Below are positions 53,172-64,000 of a stretch of DNA of 64,000 nt, one piece after another (the first letter of the stretch is position 1; the number at the start of each line of letters is the position of its first letter). This stretch comes from Valencia hispanica. Lineage: Eukaryota; Chordata; Actinopteri; Cyprinodontiformes; Valenciidae. The position numbers and the translations under genes were made by a program. Below the pieces are notes generated by a model. That model saw only the letters and a list, made by a program, of their open reading frames with translations, had not been told where the DNA came from and searched no databases. The stretch lies in the NCBI GenBank assembly GCA_963556495.2, contig OY747707.1, positions 29,341,871 through 29,405,870 on the forward strand, in the 5' to 3' direction.

Positions 53172-53204
53172 AGAGAAAGTATAGACCACTAGCTGTCAAA
53201 ATGC

Positions 53205-53555
53205 AAATGAGACCACGCCCACTTACGGACACACCCACTTACGGTCACACCCACTTCCGGAAACGCCCACTTCCGGGAACGCCCCTTCCGGTTACGCCCA
53301 CTTTTGCAGGCACCCTGGCTGCCGGAACAAGCTCCGCCATGTCACAAAAAGCTCCGCCCCCTGATGGTCACGCCCACCTGTCATTTTAAGCCCCGCCCCC
53401 TGATGGCCCCGCCCACCTGTCAAAACGGGATACGCACCCTGGTGGCCACGCCCACCTGTCAAGATAGGACACACCCACCTGTCAAAATTGGGTACGCCCA
53501 CCTGTCGAAATAGGGTACGCCCCCTGATGGTCACGCCCACCTGTCAAAATATGGC
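53205..53555. repeat. GC-rich CGCCCAC tandem repeats at the Polinton left end
   Basis: About five copies of CGCCCACTTCCGG-like units (53214-53300) are followed by six copies of CGCCCACCTGTCAAAAT-like units (53367-53550), several joined by GCCCCCTGATGG. They lie within the presumed terminal inverted repeat. Frames across them (53292-53540, both strands) are repeat artefacts. Confidence 0.9.
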
Positions 53556-53559
53556 ACTA

Positions 53560-53830
53560 AATGGCTCCCTCTAGTGGTTCTACAATTAAACTACATGCAA
53601 AAAATGAAAATACCTCCCCCTAGTGGCCCAATAAATACTATTACACCAAAACTTATAAATGCCTCCCTCTAGTGGTTCAAAATTAATATAACAGCCTATT
53701 GTATAATTGGCCCCCTCTAGTGGATCAAAGTAACATTACATGCAAATGTAAAAATACCTCCCCCTAGTGGCTCAAAAATGAAACTACATGCATATATGAA
53801 AATACCTCCCCCTAGTGGCCCAATAAATAG
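53560..53830. repeat. Six-unit minisatellite with CTCCCCCTAGTGG cores
   Basis: Irregular units of about 45-55 bp each contain CTCCC[CT]CTAGTGG (53565, 53612, 53661, 53710, 53756, 53804), and several also hold ACTACATGCA. Read on the minus strand the core is CCACTAGGGGGAGG, close to the known vertebrate CTCF core. Confidence 0.9.
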
Positions 53831-54395
53831 TAATGGTTTGAATCTAACTCCTCAGTGTCATCAGAACATGTCCGAACAAGTCCCTTTAATATTATACGGT
53901 CTGGGCTCTGTCTCAACATGACTCCTTGAGCATTCCATTTTATTTTAAACAGTTAAAAGGTGCTTTTTAGCTTCCTGACTTTAATTTAAAACCACATTAG
54001 CTCCAACACTCTAGAGACACCATTACATCTGATTCTAACAATTCAACCATGATAAATTAAACTTGTAAGAGCACTAAAAAGAGAATTTATTCACCCACAG
54101 CTATGTTGAAGCAGATGCTCATCCTTTTGTTGATTTTAAAAATGCACCATTACACAGTCTTTAAAAACAGATAAGGATTAAAAAAAAACATCACTTTAAA
54201 CCTGGTTGCTTTAAGCTGGAAATAAGAAATCTATAAAACTACTAAAGTTACTGATAAAAACCCGTCCACCAATCAGCGTTTGACACGCCCCTGCTCTGCT
54301 TTGTATTCGCTGTATTTATCACGCCCCTGACTTCACCTACGTCCGCAAGTCAGGTAAACCGGTTTGGGCGGTGCTCACCGGGCGGCATTTACCTG
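53831..54395. other. Non-coding left arm of the Polinton
   Basis: No frame. Probably the inner part of the terminal repeat and the upstream promoter region; CpG content rises from about 54260. Confidence 0.5.
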
Positions 54396-54403
54396 TATAA
54401 AAG
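54396..54403 (+). promoter_or_regulatory. TATA box of the Polinton left-arm promoter
   Basis: TATAAAAG preceded by a GC-rich region (GGGCGGTGCTCACCGGGCGG). It faces the polymerase and its neighbours. Transcription would start about 30 bases downstream, near 54427. No other TATA box of this quality lies between it and the polymerase start. Confidence 0.6.
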
Positions 54404-54716
54404 GCTGTCGGAAAACGGTTAATCTCTACAGCATGCTGGAAGGACCTCATTCAACAATCCGACCTTAAGGACACGGAGCGCGGTGCTGCGACGAACAAAG
54501 AAAACAGCGGTTTCACGAAGACTGTATCACCGGCTTCATTCGAGGGGAATCCCAGAAGCCCGCGTCATTGTCAGACCGCGTCAGAGCTGAGTCCTGGCGG
54601 GATTCCCGAGCTTCCCCTGCTAAGAGCTGGAGTTACGGGTTCAGCGGTGAAATCAACTTCACAGCGACTTCAGGAAATCTTCACATCGGCGACCTGTATT
54701 ATCGGTTTGGAGCGAG

Positions 54717-55208
54717 GTGAGTAAATGTTTTTTTTAGCTCGCAATTGTGCGATCGTCTTCGGATGTTTCATAGCACCAAGATGGATTCGCTGCTGGCTTA
54801 TCGATAGATTCACCATAGCATACATACTCTGTTACAGCTAGAAGTATCGCTCAACTCCAGTTGCTGCTCTGAGCTGGTTTTCGGGCTGGAGCGGGACTGG
54901 GGGTTGTTACAAAGCGAAACTCTGCTCTGAGGTGAGTTTACTGTTTGTTAAATTCTGTTGACTGTTTAGACACTGGTATTACCGTATTTTTATTTATTTT
55001 ATTATATTCCTGAATTTTATCTGCGCTTTATCATAGATCGTGATCGAAGCGCGGAGCTGTTTGCAATTGGACCTCAGCGGATCTGCCCAACGCCCGCCTT
55101 GCTACTTCAATTAACAGTGAGACTGTCTGGAGCTTTCTCCAACTTGTGTATTGTCTGACTCTGAATGTTTTTTCATGTCCTTTTTTTTCTGATCGTGTGT
55201 TTAAATAG
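54717..55208 (+). other. Probable intron in the polymerase leader
   Basis: A strong donor (GCGAG followed by GTGAGT at 54717) and a second, alternative one (CTGAG-GTGAGT, GT at 54932) precede an acceptor with a T-rich tract ending AAATAG at 55208, 18 bases before the polymerase ATG. Removing it would give a leader of about 290 bases. This is inferred from splice-site motifs only. Confidence 0.5.
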
Positions 55209-55226
55209 CAACATCAACCAGTCACT

Positions 55227-58200
55227 ATGAATGTCTCACAGGAGCTAAATAGTCTTCAACCGTCTAGTCAGGAAGATGAAGAATTTCAGATCAATGTACG
55301 TGACGAATTCAATAACATAGAGATCCGACACAACTTTGTCCGGCCTGAGGGTGATCATCCGTGTCCGTATGAATTTCATGATCACATAATGAATATGCTC
55401 AGGGGTTTATCAGACCGGGTGACACCACTGGTTAACACTAACGATATTGTGCAGATAGAGGTTAATGGACCCGGCGTGTCTCGCAGCGTGACTTTCTCTG
55501 TCGATGAAGGGGGGAGTAACGTCATGCAGCAGTTCGAAACGTTTTTAGATGATCTGATGCAATCCAATGCTGAAATAGCCTCAACAGAGCGTTTGGAGTT
55601 TGTAATTCAAACAGTGCGTGATCTTAGCGGGGGAGCTAGACGAAAAGCTGAAATGTCTCTCGATTGCGAGCTTATACACAAGAAGAGACGCCACCTATAT
55701 ATTGTGAACAATGATCGAGATGATAAACTGTGTTTTGCTATTAGCTTAGCCTGTGTTGCAGACCCTAGCCTCGGCTCCGATGCGGCTATACAGCTCGGTA
55801 GAGAGTTGCAACAGCGTGCAGGCCTTTCAGAACACACCCCCGTCAGATCAGGCGATATCCACAAATTTGAGAAGTTGTTGAACAGAAAAATAGTTGTTTT
55901 TATCAGAAGTGAGGGAGAGAGAGCTCTAGGGAAGATTCAGACCGACTTTGAGGACCGAAGCAGGACTGTTTTTCTATTGCAATTCAGAGACCATTACTAC
56001 GGGATCAAAAACTTGAAGGGTTTTATAGGGGCTCGGGATATTTGTCACTACTGTTTCGATCCTATAGGGCATAAATACATTCATGTATGCAAAGGTTCGT
56101 GCGCTGTCTGCAATGATGCAGCGTGTGCTCAGGGGGTTACAAATCCGATTCTTTGTCATGACTGTAACAGATATTGCAAGAACCAGACGTGTTACGATAG
56201 ACATAAAGTACCTGAGCTAAAACCCAGGGCGCGTGTGATGGTCAGTCATTGTGATCAGGTGAAGAAATGTCCCAACTGTGGGTTAAACTATAACCAGAGT
56301 CTCACAACAGGCAAGAAGCATGTGTGTCAAGGGAAGAAGTGTGGGATTTGTGGGGGTAAGCTTGATAAGGACCAGCCGGCATCAGACCATAAATGTTATA
56401 TCCAGACATGTTCTGTCGATACCGAAATAAGTGACAAGGTGATTTTTTACGATATTGAAACTTTCCCTGGTGCGCAGGGTGAGCATGTTCCATTTCTGAT
56501 CTGTTCAAAGTCCACATCTGGCGAGGAGTGGTCAGCCTACGGCAGTGATTGTATTCGGGAGTTTATTCGTGAAATCAGGAGGCCAGGCCGTCGGAATTAC
56601 ACATGTGTAGCCCATAATGCTAGAGCTTTTGATTCCTACCTTGTTCTGAATGCAATGACGGAGATGGGTTTAAATCCTGACATCATTATGCAAGGGTGTA
56701 AAATTATGAGCATCACTGATCCTGATTACGGTTTGAGGTTCATTGACAGCCTATCTTTCCTTGCCATGAAGCTTAGTAAAATGCCTGAAGCCCTCGGTTT
56801 TCCTGACCATAGCAAGGGCTATTTCCCACACCGTTTCTCATCCTCTGATAATCTGAGCTATGTAGGTTCTTACCCGCTGCCATCATTTTACGGTGTTGAG
56901 CGAATGAATCGTGCTGAGCAGGAGGAATTCTATACATGATACGCTGAGGTTAGCAAGGGCGTGTTTGACTTTAAAAAGGAGGCTCTCTTTTACTGTAAGA
57001 AGGATGTGGAGATACTCCTACAAGGATGTACAAGGTTTCGTCAGGAGTTTTTTAACGACAGTCAGATTGACCCTTTTAACAGGATCACCATCGCAAGCGC
57101 TTGTATGAAAGTGTTTCAAAGCAATCATTTGAAGGCAGACACTCTCGCTGTGCCTTCACCTACAGACTACAGCGAACAGTTTAAAAAGTTTTCCACAGCT
57201 TCCGTTGAATGGTTGGAATATGTTTCACATACAAGGAGGGTTGGAATACAGCATGCTCTAAGAGGTGGTGAGAAAAAGATTGGATCATACTTTTTAGACG
57301 GTTACCTGGAGGTAGGGGAGCGTAAAATAGGGTTTGAGTTCCATGGGTGTGAGCATCATGGCTGCAGCACCTGTCGCTATCCAACAGCTGAGAGTCCATT
57401 GACCGGTGTGCCTTATGGGCAGCTCTACGCTGCCACCATGGAGAGGGAGCATGTGCTGAGGACTGTGTACGGTATAGAGCTCGAGGTGATGTGGGAACAT
57501 GTGTGGGAAGAAATGAAGAAGAGTAACGCTGATGTGAAGCAGTTCATGATGACCTACCAGGCTCCCTGCACCACTTACCCCCCGTGAAGCGCTTTTTGGA
57601 GGGCGTACATGTGCAGTCAGGTTGAGGTACTCTGCAGCCCCCGGTGAGCAGGTTCTTTACCAGGACGTGTGTAGTCTTTACCCATTTGTTCAGAAGACGA
57701 AAAGCTTTCCTGTAGGGCACCCGATCATAATCAGGGAAAACTTTGATGATCCTAGAAATTATTATGGATTTATCAAAGCAGTCATTTCACCACCTCGTGG
57801 TCTTTATTTCCCCATTCTACCATTCAGAACAGATTATGGAAAGCTTGTATTCACCCTCTGTCGCACATGTGCATTGGAGAACAATCAGACACATAGTTGC
57901 ACCCAGACAGACACTGAGAGAGCCTTAACAGGTGTATGGGTGTCTGAAGAGGTTAAAGAAGCCCTTTCACACGGCTACAGAATCGATCAGATCATTGAGG
58001 TGTGGCACTTTGAGCAGCATAGTGATCAGATCTTTGCAAAGTATGTCAACTCCTTTTTGAAGACCAAGCAGGAAGCTTCAGGTTATCCCGAGGGTGTAGA
58101 GAGCGAGGAGGACAAACAGAAATACATCCAGGATTTCATGGTGAATCAGGGTGTAGAGTTAGACCCTGAAAAAATTAAAGTAAACCCGGCAAAACGTCAA

Positions 58201-58923
58201 GTAGCCAAGCTGTGTTTGAATTCGCTTTGGGGGAAGTTTGCTCAAAAAAATGACCAAACCCAAACCTCAATCATTAAACACCCTGACAAGTTTTTTGAGT
58301 TCCTGTTTTCAGGGAAGTTCGTCGTGACATACTTCAGCTTTCTGAACCCCAAGATGGTCATGATTCAATGGAAGTACAACAAAAACTGTGTAACGCCCCC
58401 TAACAAAACCACCAATGTGTTCGTTGCCGCATTTACAACAGCTTACGCACGACTAGAGTTATTCAGATACCTACACCAACTCCAAGAACGGGTACTCTAC
58501 CTTGACACAGACAGTGTAATCTATGTTGTGCGTGAAGGCGAGAGCTCTCTGCCGACAGGTAGCTATTTGGGTGACTTGACAAACGAGCTCCCACCAGGGG
58601 ACACCATTCAGGAGTTTGTTGCCGCAGGGCCAAAGAGTTACTCATATCAGACAAAGCACAGGGGGAAGATTGTGATGAGGGCAAAGGGGATATCGCGAAC
58701 CATAGAATGCTGTGAAAGGGTGAATTTTGATACAATGACAGGACTTGTTGACGGTTACCTGGGTGGTGAGAGAGGCGAGGTACTCAAAGCACCGCAGCAT
58801 TCCATCAAACGTGATAAAAACGGGTTCCATCTGAGGAATCACTCATTTACCAAAACTTTCAGGGTGGTCTATGACAAGCGGAGGTTGTTCCCAGACGGAA
58901 CGACGCTACCATTTGGTTTTTGA
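55227..58923 (+). pseudogene. polB: Protein-primed family B DNA polymerase, two disabling changes
   Basis: This is the replicative polymerase of the element, expected to use a terminal protein as primer. The first frame (570 codons) has a Cys/His-rich zinc region at residues about 273-390 (several C-x2-C pairs such as CHYC, CAVC, CGIC), then exonuclease motif I (YDIE, 408-411) and motif II (HNARAFDS, 463-470). It ends at a TGA (56937-56939); the same frame resumes directly with exonuclease III (YCKKDVEIL, near 56990). A frameshift lies between about 57560 and 57620. The last frame (from 57622) holds palm motif A (YQDVCSLYP), motif B (NSLWGKFAQ) and motif C (YLDTDS), with a long insertion between A and B as in protein-primed enzymes. 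ATG at 55227 follows a splice acceptor. The catalytic motifs are intact, so inactivation looks recent. Confidence 0.95.
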
Positions 58924-58932
58924 GGGGGGAAA

Positions 58933-59616
58933 ATGCAGCATCAGGGTGAACTGGAAGCGATTAACTTTGACCCAAGATTTATAACTCCTTTTTCAAGTCT
59001 TGTGGTAGGCCCGAGTGGCTGTGGGAAGTCTTTTTTTGTAAAAAATGTTTTGATTAATTGTCTACATGTGATGGATTCTGTACCTGAAAATATTGTTTGG
59101 ATCTACACTTCATTCCAACCATTGTATACGGAATTGATGAAGATTAATAAATCAATTAAATTCATCGAAGGATTGCCTCATTCCTTTGAAGATGATGTTT
59201 TATTCCCCCCAGATCAATCGCATCTATTGATTCTCGATGATGTACTCTTTCAAGCAGCTGAGCATCCAGAGGTCGTGAAAATATTTACACAATATCGACA
59301 CCATAGAAACATGAGCGTTATGATGTTGACTCAGAATGTGTTTCTCAAGGGGAAACATACTCGAACTATCAGTCTTAATTGTAATTATATGGTCTTGTTT
59401 AAAAACCCACGTGACAGATTGCAGGTAGCAAATTTAGCACGTCAAATTTTCCCTGGACAGAAACCCTTTTTCATGGAGAGTTTTGAAGATGCTACGAGCC
59501 AACCACACGGCTATTTATTTGTAGACCTAACCCCTGACACACCAGACCAATACAGGCTCAGGACAGGTTTACTTCCTGGACAGTGGCCGGCTGTTTACAT
59601 AGCTAAGAACAAGTGA
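58933..59616 (+). CDS. Genome-packaging ATPase (FtsK/HerA-A32 type)
   Basis: This protein is expected to pump the element DNA into capsids. Of 227 residues, 26-33 form the Walker A loop (GPSGCGKS), 98-103 the Walker B strand (LLILDD), and LTQN at 132-135 fits the sensor position seen after Walker B in this superfamily; Arg160 and Arg162 (NPRDR) are candidate arginine fingers. The ATG lies 9 bases after the polymerase stop. Its stop lies only five bases before the next ATG (59622), so the left-arm genes are packed almost end to end. The frame is intact. Polinton and adintovirus ATPases are of similar length. Confidence 0.93.
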   Translation: MQHQGELEAINFDPRFITPFSSLVVGPSGCGKSFFVKNVLINCLHVMDSVPENIVWIYTSFQPLYTELMKINKSIKFIEGLPHSFEDDVLFPPDQSHLLILDDVLFQAAEHPEVVKIFTQYRHHRNMSVMMLTQNVFLKGKHTRTISLNCNYMVLFKNPRDRLQVANLARQIFPGQKPFFMESFEDATSQPHGYLFVDLTPDTPDQYRLRTGLLPGQWPAVYIAKNK

Positions 59617-59621
59617 CCAAC

Positions 59622-59960
59622 ATGTCGGCACGCATAAAAAGAAATGCACCGTTACTAGGGGCTCTTTTTCATTCCACACCCCAGAAACGTAAAGATATCC
59701 TAACTCATTGTTCTCCCGACTTTCTACAAACCTTGTGCGAGATTGCTTTAAATGTGCTGAAAGGGAACATCAAGCTGTCCACAACACAATACAACAGACT
59801 TAAGAAGCAGAAAAAAATCCTCAGGCTGTTGGCTGATCAGAAGGTGGGGTTAAAGCGCAAACGACAGACATTGAAAACCCAGACAGGAGGAATTCTCCCG
59901 CTGATTGCAGCTGTAATACCGTTTCTCGGAGAATTGGTGGCTGGAATATTCCGCCGGTAG
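59622..59960 (+). CDS. pX/mu-like basic core protein
   Basis: A 112-residue basic protein (ATG chosen; an upstream GTG at 59613 is in frame but unlikely to be used in an animal cell). The first two thirds are rich in Lys and Arg (RLKKQKKILRLLADQ, LKRKR). Then a double glycine (TQTGG, about residue 89) leads into a hydrophobic tail, ILPLIAAVIPFLGELVAG, ending in RR. A basic segment followed by Gly-Gly and a hydrophobic tail is the layout of the adenovirus DNA-condensing protein pX, whose cleavage by adenain occurs at such a Gly-Gly context. The protease at 60755 would be the matching enzyme. The role in condensing packaged DNA is inferred from this likeness. Confidence 0.7.
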   Translation: MSARIKRNAPLLGALFHSTPQKRKDILTHCSPDFLQTLCEIALNVLKGNIKLSTTQYNRLKKQKKILRLLADQKVGLKRKRQTLKTQTGGILPLIAAVIPFLGELVAGIFRR

Positions 59961-59969
59961 AAGTGTATT

Positions 59970-60617
59970 ATGACACTGAGAGCATCACAGAAAATGTTTC
60001 TAGTCTCGCCGCATCACTTAAATCGTCTGAAGCAACGGGATAACTCCGGAACCATACGACAGAAGGCTCAGGATGACACTGATGAGGACATGCAGGCAAT
60101 ATTGGATGACCCAAACAGTGCATCGTACGAGAAAATTAAACGCTACCACGCATTACTTCAGAAATACCTAACCCTCCTTAAGCAAGGAGAGAACGAAGAG
60201 CCGCGTGTCACCCTATCGCTGCAGAGAGACCGTGCGAATGATGACCCCCCGAAGGACAACCAGATCGTTAGTGGGTATAGCCGAGGTTTAGACGGTCTAG
60301 ACTCCGCAGAGACCTCTTCTACACCTGCCGTTGAGAGTGTCGTGGATGAGAGAGCAGGCAGGAAATCAAAAAATAAAAAGCGCGTATTGATGTCACCAGT
60401 TTGGCCGTCTTTAAAGGCTCCAACTGCTACAAAACGGCGGGAAAGAAGGAGGTCGTTCATGATGTCACCAGTTTGGCCTCAGAATGCGCAGGTACCACGC
60501 AGAAAGCGTAAGAGTGTTACCTTATCACCCCTCTGGACCAGAGCGGAAGATCATTTCAGTAAAAAGTCTCTTCGTAAGGCAACCCGAGCCCCCAGCTGGC
60601 TCACATTCTCCCCCTAG
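59970..60617 (+). CDS. Basic protein with three SPxW repeats, function unknown
   Basis: 215 residues. The N-terminal part (MFLVSPHHLNRLKQ, then QAILDDPNSASYEKIKRYHA and LLQKYLTLLKQ) looks helical and may form a coiled coil. The middle (about 78-130) is acidic and low in complexity. The C-terminal third is strongly basic and repeats SPVW or SPLW after a hydrophobic pair at residues 142-145, 166-169 and 186-189, with KRR/RRKR clusters between; a weaker APSW is at 207-210. The frame begins 10 bases after the pX-like gene. A nucleic-acid-binding structural or scaffold role is possible but not shown; similar small basic genes occur next to the ATPase in other Polintons. Confidence 0.75.
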   Translation: MTLRASQKMFLVSPHHLNRLKQRDNSGTIRQKAQDDTDEDMQAILDDPNSASYEKIKRYHALLQKYLTLLKQGENEEPRVTLSLQRDRANDDPPKDNQIVSGYSRGLDGLDSAETSSTPAVESVVDERAGRKSKNKKRVLMSPVWPSLKAPTATKRRERRRSFMMSPVWPQNAQVPRRKRKSVTLSPLWTRAEDHFSKKSLRKATRAPSWLTFSP

Positions 60618-60653
60618 CTGCATGACTACTGAATAAGCGTTGTTTCTTTTCAC

Positions 60654-60659
60654 AATAAA
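60654..60659 (+). terminator. Polyadenylation signal of the left-arm genes
   Basis: AATAAA 37 bases after the stop of the last plus-strand gene, inside the short gap between the convergent gene sets. Confidence 0.7.
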
Positions 60660-60692
60660 CGATATGTGTTCACATAATTTCATGCGTACAGG

Positions 60693-60698
60693 TTTATT
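60693..60698 (-). terminator. Polyadenylation signal of the right-arm genes
   Basis: AATAAA on the minus strand, 57 bases past the protease stop. With the plus-strand signal 34 bases away, the two transcript sets end back to back. Confidence 0.7.
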
Positions 60699-60754
60699 TC
60701 ATTCCATGTTACACATCATAAGTCTAATACATTTGATGCATATTCTCATACATA

Positions 60755-61297
60755 TCAAAACCCGTAACAATCTTTAAACACATCTAGAGAACAGGTTCTA
60801 TGCGTGAAAAACGTTGTGTTTCGCTTCATAGCACATTTCACATACTTTTTGACAAAGTTAGATACAAGCTCATCATTTGATTCAGGAATTTGACAATACT
60901 TTGATAAAACTTGTTGCATGGAGAGACCACAGGCTCTATGGCATAAATAAAAAATACAGTGATGCCCACAAACAGAAGATTGAACGCTCTGAAATTGTTG
61001 GTTATGGTACATTATCACAGACGAACGATCTTTCAAAAAATCCAAAATGGATGAAGGGTAATAGACAAATTCTGGTGAGTACCCGTAAGAGTCAAAAAAC
61101 ATTGCTTTACCACCCTCTTCCAGAGTGAGGGCTAGCCAGTGTTCCCCAGGCATGTTAGAAGGGTGTGTATTGACGATAAAATAAGCCGGTCTGGGGAATG
61201 TTAGTGGTAGCAGCTCCAGTTGGTCGCTGGCCCATACACCGCAGAAAAGCTTCCCAAGCAGATGACTGAGTATTGCATCGAGTTCGTGATTATTCAT
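60755..61297 (-). CDS. Adenain-like cysteine protease
   Basis: A maturation protease that would cleave capsid and core precursors. In 180 residues the catalytic set of the C5 (adenain, Ulp1-fold) family is visible: His53 in GEHWLAL, Asp69 in FFDSYG, Gln103 in QFQSVQ and Cys110 in SSVCGHHC, the Gln and Cys seven residues apart as expected for the oxyanion hole. The length fits the family (around 200). The start codon lies one base after the capsid gene stop, so the two were probably translated from a shared or closely nested transcript set. Intact frame. Confidence 0.92.
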   Translation of the reverse strand: MNNHELDAILSHLLGKLFCGVWASDQLELLPLTFPRPAYFIVNTHPSNMPGEHWLALTLEEGGKAMFFDSYGYSPEFVYYPSSILDFLKDRSSVIMYHNQQFQSVQSSVCGHHCIFYLCHRACGLSMQQVLSKYCQIPESNDELVSNFVKKYVKCAMKRNTTFFTHRTCSLDVFKDCYGF

Positions 61298-61298
61298 G

Positions 61299-62504
61299 TC
61301 ATCTCATTTCTAGCCTAATGTTACCACTGCGTACTGGTGATAGTGCTTCAGATTCAGCACATGGGTCGAGATTAAAAGCAAATAATGCGTAACCCGTGTT
61401 AAAGTCCTCACTAGTTATGCTTAGGGGGAGATCCTTTAAATGCCTCCCTGCGGATGTAAACAGGTTGTAATATTCTCGTACAGAATTACCCTGATCGAAG
61501 TTTGGCTGGAAGGCCTTTGCAGGAATCTGTCTACCATCACGGGACAGAGCTAGATACTCCATATTATAATGCTTGAATGAAAACGGATTCAAATTGCGCG
61601 CTCCTGTGAAGGCCTGGTGATTAACCATCGAAATAACCACATATTTAGGTGTCATACCCAAGAACAGGTTCTCCTGAGTGCATATTCTTGAATGTTCAGG
61701 TATAGAGTATGTTTTTACATTTACACGCGATACCGGGTACAAAGCATTTCCTTTCATTAATGCGGTCTCATGACCGAGCCGTACGGCGGGAGATACAGTC
61801 ACCTTTTTGACAAAGAGAGCTGCACCTAAAATCCATAGTTTGAAAGTAGAATCTGCAGCACCCATAAGACAGAACGCATCGCTTGCTCGTGTTAGCTTAA
61901 TTCTTATGTCAACAGAGTTCAAAAGTAGTCTTTCACAGAATAATATGTCAGCATGAAGCGGTCCTAGTAGGTGCACCTCTCGAGATTGGGCTGTAAAGGA
62001 GGCACGTTGGTTTAATCCTTCATTCGGTCCATCAATAGTCTCTGTAGAATCCATTTCATCGGCTGTATCTTTATAAAAAAGCCCTGCACTGAACTGGCTT
62101 TTAAGGGTTTGATCTGAATAATTAAGCAATGTTTCGATCATAGCTCTATAAGGATGCGTAGCGCTGGACTGCGATATTAAACGGTCTCCAAGGGTTACAT
62201 CACATTGGGAAAAAATTGTGTTCAGAGGGTAGTTAATTAAGCCGACCTTAGCGTCACGAGCCATGGGCGAACCGTTAGCATTGCTAATTTTAATTCTGAG
62301 ATGGATCAACATGTCATTTAAATCGGTATACGACTCGCCCCCACCAGGGATAAAAAATTCTATCGGTCCTCCATCGGTGATGGCTGAAAGGGGTGAAATC
62401 TCAGTGTACAGCTTATCCTCTACCGATAGTTGAGTCATAGGCGCTGAAAATAAGTCAAGCTCACCGAGCGTACACTCTCCCAATTTGACATGTAGTAGAG
62501 CCAT
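61299..62504 (-). CDS. Major capsid protein (double jelly-roll)
   Basis: A 401-residue protein beginning MALLHVKLGECTLGELDLFS. I recognise it as the protein family annotated in many animal genomes as F54H12.2-like, established as the Polinton major capsid protein with two jelly-roll domains. The Asp/Gly pattern GGPIEFFIPGGGESYTDLND near residues 45-65 and the strand-rich body fit. The C-terminal third has YAL-F-NLDP, also usual for the family. It lies between the pVI-like gene (12 bases upstream) and the protease. Trimers would form the hexon-like faces of the particle. Intact frame. Confidence 0.88.
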   Translation of the reverse strand: MALLHVKLGECTLGELDLFSAPMTQLSVEDKLYTEISPLSAITDGGPIEFFIPGGGESYTDLNDMLIHLRIKISNANGSPMARDAKVGLINYPLNTIFSQCDVTLGDRLISQSSATHPYRAMIETLLNYSDQTLKSQFSAGLFYKDTADEMDSTETIDGPNEGLNQRASFTAQSREVHLLGPLHADILFCERLLLNSVDIRIKLTRASDAFCLMGAADSTFKLWILGAALFVKKVTVSPAVRLGHETALMKGNALYPVSRVNVKTYSIPEHSRICTQENLFLGMTPKYVVISMVNHQAFTGARNLNPFSFKHYNMEYLALSRDGRQIPAKAFQPNFDQGNSVREYYNLFTSAGRHLKDLPLSITSEDFNTGYALFAFNLDPCAESEALSPVRSGNIRLEMR

Positions 62505-62516
62505 ATTCCTATTCGG

Positions 62517-62963
62517 TTAAAATATGTCAGAGCCTCTGCCGGACTTCCTTCCCCTCTGCCTGCTCACCCTGAGTGGTTTCTTTTTCTTTGTCTTGGCTTG
62601 TTTTCTAGTCATCCAAACACGCTCTCCAGGGGGTCTCTTTCGACCTCGTCTTGATAAGATCATAATTCCTGAACCTTCCTGAGCATCAGAATTCTGACCG
62701 ATCTTGCTCTTGATTTTATTGACCGCCCTCCCAAAGACGTCCGAAGCTATATTCCATGCCGCAGCTTTAAGGTGCGGTTTAGCAATCGACACTCCTTTCT
62801 TAACAAATGGGGATATAAATCGGAAGAGGCGGGCAAACACAGATCCAAATCCACGACCATACATGACAGGCTGTCCTGAAAACCCGGGTAGCTCTCCACC
62901 CGTCTGGTTCACATAATATTGTACAAACCGCGTTGGTTCTGGTCTGTGTGTTAAGTATGCCAT
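62517..62963 (-). CDS. pVI-like membrane-active/basic minor protein
   Basis: 148 residues. A Gly-Gly (GGELPGF) near residue 23 and a Gly-rich VMYGRGFGSVFARLF stretch (33-47) precede an amphipathic segment (FRFISPFVKKGVSIAKPHLK). The C-terminal half is very basic (KTKKKKPLRVSRQRGRKSGRG). An amphipathic helix after a cleavable glycine motif and a basic tail is the layout of the adenovirus internal protein VI, which disrupts endosomal membranes. The call rests on this layout and position between penton and major capsid genes. Its first 13 bases overlap the end of the penton gene. Confidence 0.65.
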   Translation of the reverse strand: MAYLTHRPEPTRFVQYYVNQTGGELPGFSGQPVMYGRGFGSVFARLFRFISPFVKKGVSIAKPHLKAAAWNIASDVFGRAVNKIKSKIGQNSDAQEGSGIMILSRRGRKRPPGERVWMTRKQAKTKKKKPLRVSRQRGRKSGRGSDIF

Positions 62964-63760
62964 TTTACCGCAGGTGTCAAAACCGGTTTAAAGTGCAGCT
63001 TCACGATCGTCTTCCCGTATACAAAGTTCACACACTCGTTACGATCTGTTTTTACCTGTATGCAGATTGTCTTAATATAGCTTTTTGAAACGGGGAGGTA
63101 ATGCACTGTGTTATACCTCACACCAATCACGTCACCGAATTTACCATTTATGTTTACGACACCGAGCAGAGGTGAGTGACTGTCACCAACAGTTTGGAAA
63201 TGGATTATGTCTGTGTAGACAAACAGGTTATATACACCAGTGCCGAGATCCGCTGGGTGGGGCGCAGATCTGTTGGAGATGGTCCACCATTCGTCAGCGT
63301 TCAAACCGAGCATGATGGAGAGAGGGTTGCTAGCTCGAATTTTGTATCTTCCATCCCCCCTGAAGTCAAATTTTTTCGAGACATTATTGTAGGTTAGATC
63401 GATGCTCCTGTCATATTTCTTCATGGCTGGGACTAGAGCATCTGAGAGGTCTTGAGGTCTCTCAAAATACCCCCCTCCGGAAAACTTGGACCTGGCGTAT
63501 TCTATACGGGGTGTATTCCTCTCATCTTTAGATTTGTCTCCCACCTCATAAACAACCTTCTTTAAATCAATGTATGAATGCTGATCCAACAGGTTATACC
63601 ATGTATGAGGGTAGACAATTTCACACAGTCCCACTACCCAGTCTCCACTTAGCTCAATAGCCTTTGGAAGGTCTGTAGTATAATTTGAGCTCTTGTTATC
63701 TTTAAATACCTCTCCGCTGGCGTTGGAAGGTAGAGTTACATAGAACCCCTCATCAGACAT
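62951..63760 (-). CDS. Minor capsid protein (penton, single jelly-roll)
   Basis: 269 residues starting MSDEGFYVTLPSNASGEVFK. The N-terminal NASGEVFKDNKSSNYTTDLP and ELSGDWVVGLCEIVYPHTWYN are characteristic of Polinton/adintovirus penton-like proteins (peaks of aromatic residues and a conserved 'P-x-T-W-Y-N'). Such proteins form the vertices of the capsid. The stop overlaps the start of the pVI-like gene by 13 bases, and the ATG lies 129 bases from the integrase stop, consistent with one leftward gene block. Intact frame. Confidence 0.85.
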   Translation of the reverse strand: MSDEGFYVTLPSNASGEVFKDNKSSNYTTDLPKAIELSGDWVVGLCEIVYPHTWYNLLDQHSYIDLKKVVYEVGDKSKDERNTPRIEYARSKFSGGGYFERPQDLSDALVPAMKKYDRSIDLTYNNVSKKFDFRGDGRYKIRASNPLSIMLGLNADEWWTISNRSAPHPADLGTGVYNLFVYTDIIHFQTVGDSHSPLLGVVNINGKFGDVIGVRYNTVHYLPVSKSYIKTICIQVKTDRNECVNFVYGKTIVKLHFKPVLTPAVKWHT

Positions 63761-63889
63761 TGTGAATTTGACGGAGCAAAAAAAGTCATCTAAAGGCTTT
63801 GGAGGGTAAGGTTTACTAATTAATCATAGTCTGTAGAACCCACGCTTTATAGTGAATCGACGATGTGTTAAACGGTTTTGTGGGCGATA

Positions 63890-64000
63890 TTATTTGACAC
63901 TTTTAACATCTGAGGCTCTGACCCAACTGTTGAATTTTTCGGGCCAATTTCTCCACCGCACAAAGACTTGGTCCTCCCCGTTGACTCTCCGCCGCTTTAA
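63890..64000 (-). CDS. Integrase, C-terminal chromodomain tail (runs off the edge)
   Basis: An open stretch of 36 codons plus stop enters from the right edge. It contains VFVRWRNWPEKFNSWVRAS, the core of a chromodomain (Trp-Arg-x-Trp-Pro then Phe-Asn-Ser-Trp), which is the usual C-terminal module of Polinton and other retrovirus-type integrases. Chromodomains bind modified histone tails and can steer insertion. The catalytic core lies outside the window. The gene would be first in the right arm, next to the right terminal repeat. Confidence 0.85.
   Translation of the reverse strand, partial: LKRRRVNGEDQVFVRWRNWPEKFNSWVRASDVKSVK

Follow-up and report, generated by a model that had tools for sequence, protein, structure and literature searches.

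The 64,000-nucleotide window analysed here (G000:C9:29341871-29405870, in the 1.29-Gb genome of the teleost Valencia hispanica) holds, from a left end at position 53172 up to the window edge, a vertebrate Maverick/Polinton of the adintovirus-like kind. This copy is very probably a degraded member of a young and large family in that genome. The family multiplied recently, to at least 150 copies of its protease gene, and since its capsid gene was under purifying selection during the spread, the copies probably needed functional capsids to move, not just their polymerase and integrase; the window copy would then have decayed through two polymerase breaks, damage to the capsid C-terminus, a nonsense codon in the integrase, and the loss of its right end. 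Taken by itself the window copy is ordinary, one decayed family member. The transposon or virus mode of vertebrate Mavericks is unsettled; in this single fish species it becomes testable through a very recent burst whose capsid gene is constrained and through mirror-image copies with normal insertion scars. Such elements are considered to replicate as linear DNA via a protein-primed polymerase, to package with an ATPase, a double jelly-roll capsid and an adenain protease, and to insert by means of an rve integrase, leaving 6-bp target duplications; by analogy, protein priming, packaging, protease maturation and integrase action would operate in this family as well.

Size and age of the family

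The gene tables scored 103 of 371 candidates for the capsid, 150 of 293 for the protease, 93 of 421 for the polymerase and 150 of 341 for the ATPase; these counts are lower bounds, and each mirror-image copy described below contributes two matches to the polymerase and ATPase tables. Protease-gene matches in the genome number at least 150, with 94-100% identity. Rows free of stops, counted by eye with frameshifts not excluded, amount to 87 of 103 for the capsid, 137 of 150 for the protease and 127 of 150 for the ATPase, and the polymerase is open for at least 1236 codons without a stop in 56 of its 93 scored matches. Open frames of all four genes exist in quantity in this genome, no single copy being singled out; functional relatives in the same species had been suggested as possible in an earlier reading of the window, made from its letters alone (the original prediction).

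Twenty copies were hand-picked across the capsid ranking, and 15 of them gave both termini while five lacked one. The first 24 bases at 53172 are the left end of 18 of the 20 (exactly in 16), and the end of the sampled copies, AGAGAAAGTATAGACCACTA, is that found at window position 53172; the ends begin with AGAGAA. Terminal inverted repeats are present in the sampled copies, and only the left one was found in the window copy. Perfect 6-bp target duplications flank 14 of the 15 copies with both termini, whose length ranges from 13,984 to 15,850 bp (median 15,632). The inner boundary of the left repeat was placed from matches of window position 54594 to the right ends of copies. The left and right inner repeats of the 15 comparable copies out of 20 differ by 62 substitutions in 9163 bases, a mean of 0.68% (0-2.03% per copy), two of these comparisons spanning fewer than 100 bases. 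The 26 capsid genes compared show a median difference of 4 in 1203 bases; 11 are identical in DNA and 15 in protein. The window capsid gene has a median of 11 differences from the others, 7 of which are private, and has older variants in common with a few copies.

At a neutral rate assumed to be 3-10 x 10^-9 per site per year, the mean insertion age comes to roughly 0.3-1.1 million years, and that of the window copy to about 0.5-1.5 million years, given 8 changes private to it over the 1743 bases of its capsid and protease genes. The proposal of a young insertion is supported.

Selection on the capsid module

A comparison of copies for selection, which the original prediction had called for, bore out constraint in one class of variants and gave a weaker signal in the other. 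Capsid and protease variants common to at least two copies (26 and 25 copies, respectively) comprise 9 synonymous and 0 nonsynonymous changes; private variants comprise 31 synonymous and 36 nonsynonymous changes, plus 6 stops (Fisher p=0.002 against shared). In the capsid alone the shared variants are 7 synonymous to 0 (p=0.0002) and the private ones 25 to 25; the neutral nonsynonymous fraction for the capsid test is 0.704, and both classes fall below it. We read these counts as pointing to constraint during the spread and weaker constraint afterwards. With its gene showing such a sign of purifying selection, the capsid likely functioned during the spread. For cyprinid Mavericks, PMC8097293 came to a like conclusion on constraint during and after the spread.

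Several points weigh against this account. The protease alone is not significant (p=0.08 for shared, 0.35 for private variants), and PW and penton, read in 8 copies, give one shared synonymous site each, which is too few. The test comprises 9 shared sites in two genes from at most 26 copies, with kinship ignored. Private capsid variants lie below the neutral expectation (p=0.002), so that neutrality after insertion fits uncleanly. In addition, of 24 sampled protease genes that were translated directly, 5 contain stops, proportionally more than in the table (13 of 150 rows).

The strongest alternative, which we nevertheless consider unlikely, is an ordinary DNA transposon burst in the germ line, driven by polymerase and integrase with the capsid genes as passengers. 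It would account for the many copies, for a family known here from DNA sequence alone, and for private changes near the neutral proportion in the protease (11 of 17 nonsynonymous) and the penton (9 of 14); it sits badly with the purely synonymous character of all 9 shared capsid and protease variants and with capsid genes so often identical (of 26, 11 at the DNA level and 15 at the protein level).

Decay of the window copy

Returning to the degraded member of a young family, the polymerase carries one nonsense codon (56937-56939) and one frame change (between 57553 and 57587), just as was first described. The stop is absent from all 9 aligned sister copies (10 had been requested), and 7 of these 9 are open through both break sites; copies free of both changes had been suggested as a thing to look for.

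The damage extends further. Exactly 34 further capsid residues are present in 100 of 120 relatives, among the matches listed, and an extra 113 bases stand at the capsid-protease junction in 24 of 24 measurable sister copies (25 tried). The capsid table gives the window frame as 405, against 418-444 in the other rows of 103 (internal stops read through). As read from the sequence, the window capsid gene is cut by a 113-bp deletion that none of the copies compared carries, and its junction shows no microhomology in the single copy against which this was checked. In the full-length relative P0001, residues 402-435, the part lost from the window capsid, hold the modelled strands 410-424 and 430-433. 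The window capsid would then have lost its function; on the other side, some adintoviruses are reported to have hexons truncated at the C-terminus (PMC11071296), so that a short capsid may still function.

The last 36 codons of the integrase and its stop lie inside the window (64000-63890), where they had been overlooked; by eye they look chromodomain-like. The remainder is found beyond the window edge, in L009, with an rve domain (PF00665, 2.1e-12) on L009:1-891 and a nonsense codon after codon 29 (L009:892-894). That site is open in 19 of the 20 sampled copies, and the exception has a stop at another codon. Similarity to 17 of the 20 copies reaches L009:1818, within the first right-hand accessory gene, and ends earlier in the other three. 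A search for the right terminal repeat through 27 kb past the window did not find it; only host-flank repeats matched. The window copy has lost its right end. Of the two things expected to the right of position 64000, the integrase was recovered and the right terminal repeat was not. None of the window copy's breaks is common to any sampled sister copy. A decay index (protein changes at conserved columns, with 18 of 120 capsid and 9 of 44 protease relatives dropped by length) placed the window capsid at rank 20 of 103 and the protease at 29 of 36, neither of them unusual.

The core of the original prediction, that the element is nearly complete and that nothing but its polymerase is disabled, is thereby refuted. 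Most frames are indeed open, six of the seven said to be full remaining so (ATPase, two small proteins, protease, PW/pVI-like protein and penton), and the truncated hexons of other adintoviruses (PMC11071296) would make a short capsid tolerable; the seventh frame, the major capsid, is 34 residues short through the 113-bp deletion, the integrase has its nonsense codon, and no right terminal repeat was found in 27 kb past the window. We give practically no credit to the idea that the host has domesticated and retained the capsid gene here, in spite of the mostly open capsid-module frames: the capsid of the window copy is truncated, near-identical capsid genes exist in 102 other scored matches, and the private changes of this copy in four genes divide into 12 nonsynonymous and 7 synonymous, near the neutral proportion expected without constraint.

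Mirror-image copies

The polymerase table contains five pairs of matches facing each other within a few kilobases. Three of them, designated C26, C7 and C11 (Table 1), are bounded on each side by an exact terminus and by identical 6-bp duplications, and their host flanks are unrelated. They consist of two left arms: the ATPase is on both arms at C26 and C7, and the centre of C11, the only one of the three that was read, follows the window sequence as far as position 59055 and turns back at 59351. Inside the three copies there is no scored row for capsid or protease (by eye; the integrase was not searched for there).

A two-left-ended genome would be expected if a displaced strand snapped back while linear DNA was being copied by protein priming. 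We lean, by a small margin, to the view that the family throws off such snap-back genomes (two left halves with a fold-back joint), which integrated as units with perfect 6-bp duplications; mirror genomes would also be compatible with two copies having recombined before they integrated. The outer ends, compared ungapped over their first 80 bases, differ at 0 positions in C26, 5 in C7 and 12 in C11, against 0-28 in the 15 ordinary copies, and neither support nor refute that view. Because the mirror copies integrated normally, apparently without capsid genes, a helper acting in trans is suggested.

Mirror copies with normal insertion scars could serve as a footprint of the replication mode. If the snap-back origin is true, they would be germ-line evidence of extrachromosomal Maverick replication as linear protein-primed DNA, and defective, helper-dependent Maverick genomes would have been integrated (perhaps also packaged) in trans, like defective interfering viruses. 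No title on mirror Polintons occurs among the literature matches listed, which is not proof of absence.

Of the two other facing pairs, the mirror-like pair on C16 was excluded because the inversion extends into the host flanks (700 bp, 99.6%); an inverted duplication of the chromosome or a fold-back in the assembly may lie behind it. The fifth pair (C1) has no recognisable second end. Further candidates, all of them ATPase or capsid matches that face each other or diverge, are left-left pairs at C6:17899798/17903732 and C4:28876693/28878241 and right-right pairs at C15:16502653/16505720 and C18:16899323/16900923, the second end of the C18 pair not being found. One sampled copy, c01 (G000:C9:11460567-11476251; L011, L031), has an inverted duplication of its penton-integrase right arm with intact ends, and its target duplication is intact (CACTAG/CACTAG).

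Gene content of the element

Frames were taken from stop-to-stop reading and domains from a Pfam scan against family cut-offs; the three polymerase pieces, the Adeno_IVa2-type ATPase and the adenain protease lie above cut-off (Table 1). On the minus strand the protease, major capsid, PW/pVI-like and penton genes are followed at the window edge by the C-terminal codons of the integrase. The convergent two-module layout and the gene order match the vertebrate Mavericks of PMC8097293.

Table 1. Features of the window copy and positions of the three mirror-image copies
Feature	Position	Strand	Length	Basis or remark
Left terminal inverted repeat	53172..54594	+		Terminus common to sampled copies
Tandem arrays inside left terminal inverted repeat	between 53215 and 53829			
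TATA box inside terminal repeat	54396-54402			By eye
Protein-primed DNA polymerase B, first piece	55227..56939	+		PF03175 1.4e-08; stop codon at end
Polymerase, second piece	56940..57587	+		PF03175 1.3e-09; up to frame change
Polymerase, third piece	57553..58923	+		PF03175 1.6e-31
Packaging ATPase	58933..59616	+	227 residues	PF02456 1.9e-05; open frame
Small core-type protein, PM position	59622..59960	+	112 residues	Open reading frame and gene order; no Pfam match
Basic protein, PZ position	59970..60617	+	215 residues	Open reading frame; three SPVWP/SPLWT-type basic repeats
Poly(A) signal AATAAA between convergent modules	60654-60659	+		By eye
Poly(A) signal AATAAA between convergent modules	60693-60698	-		By eye
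Adenain-type cysteine protease	60755..61297	-	180 residues	PF00770 2.4e-05
Major capsid protein, C-terminally short	61299..62504	-	401 residues	Against 435 residues
PW/pVI-like protein	62517..62963	-	148 residues	Open reading frame and position
Penton/minor capsid protein	62951..63760	-	269 residues	Open reading frame and position
Integrase C-terminus	63890..64000	-	36 codons and stop	Gene continues beyond window edge
Mirror copy C26	G000:C26:32758239-32773317		15,079 bp	Duplication GTTATG
Mirror copy C7	G000:C7:36844287-36860230		15,944 bp	Duplication CACGTA
Mirror copy C11	G000:C11:38943024-38955499		12,476 bp	Duplication CATGCT

The three polymerase pieces cover positions 7-462 of the PF03175 profile in order. 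The polymerase is of type B, and from what is known of the family it would be protein-primed; an OTU-like N-terminal part is visible by eye only, without an OTU match in Pfam. Against PHROGs the third piece matched strongly (phrog_1907, 4.7e-38) and the matches were otherwise weak; an NCBIfam scan gave matches far below cut-off only. In viral_contigs, none of 74 pattern matches was confirmed as a relative.

The leader before the polymerase start has splice-donor-like sites at 54717-54722 and 54932-54937 and an acceptor-like site at 55207-55208 (by eye). Together with the TATA box these signals would allow a possible spliced leader; the promoter, being part of the terminal repeat, would be present in the same form at both ends. 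The leader stretch 54874-55163 (ca. 290 bp) is matched twice by the copies c04, c05, c11, c14 and c18, a doubling that perhaps marks a subfamily.

The PZ-position protein has no relative at E<=0.001 among 222 candidates. The protease, the sole gene whose completeness was checked against relatives, is full length in an alignment with 12 of them; it is 58% identical to P0127, named as a Larimichthys croaker adintovirus adenain. Capsid relatives are 54-78% identical (best 120 of 646), many of them from named teleosts; among the matches listed none carries an adintovirus name, which one protease relative does. The capsid found no match by sequence in the PDB; the model of its full-length relative P0001 is a double jelly-roll and matches the capsids of PBCV-1, faustovirus, Sputnik and mavirus. 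PW and penton are without a stop in 7 of 7 copies read. The penton has no Pfam match, and its assignment is presumed from position and a sequence pattern.

Two right-hand accessory proteins were read from stop to stop, L022:3617-4606 (330 codons) and L022:2814-3416 (201 codons); they share a Cys/His-rich stretch CxxC...HQCL (by eye) and match no Pfam family above cut-off. The former is truncated in the window copy. Farther right, outside the element, L009:5065-6232 holds decayed pieces, in more than one frame, of what we take from a motif to be a Tc1/mariner-like transposase. The window copy also adjoins an apparent long interspersed element (LINE) remnant (by eye).

Comparison with known systems

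The vertebrate Mavericks of Barreat and Katzourakis (2021, PMC8097293) agree with the present family in their eight genes, two convergent modules, 6-bp duplications, AG-type end, size, intact-looking teleost genes and purifying selection; the AGAGAA ends found here are near the (AG)3 of that study, which reports that Maverick particles were not observed. It lists no more than 38 intact copies for any one genome, and the 287 of the axolotl are all defective; here, one genome gives at least 150 scored protease-gene matches with 94-100% identity. 'Intact' there means all core genes open in a copy; the counts given here are made gene by gene. Mirror-image copies have no mention in its Results or early Discussion.

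Adintoviruses (Starrett 2021, cited in PMC11071296) share PolB, hexon, penton, adenain and the rve integrase. PMC11071296 defines them by a hexon related by BLASTP to reference adintoviruses, a PolB with an N-terminal OTU-like domain, and an integrase with a chromodomain; here the OTU-like and chromodomain parts are seen by eye only, and the window copy is an integrated, broken locus. Adintovirus-named reads are reported from catfish RNA-seq and from a tortoise lesion (PMC11640650, PMC10812802). Finally, the snapback defective genomes of adeno-associated virus (AAV; PMC8235507) resemble the mirror copies in carrying one genome end twice. AAV is, however, a parvovirus with hairpin replication, whereas the mirror copies described here are chromosomal and bear target duplications.

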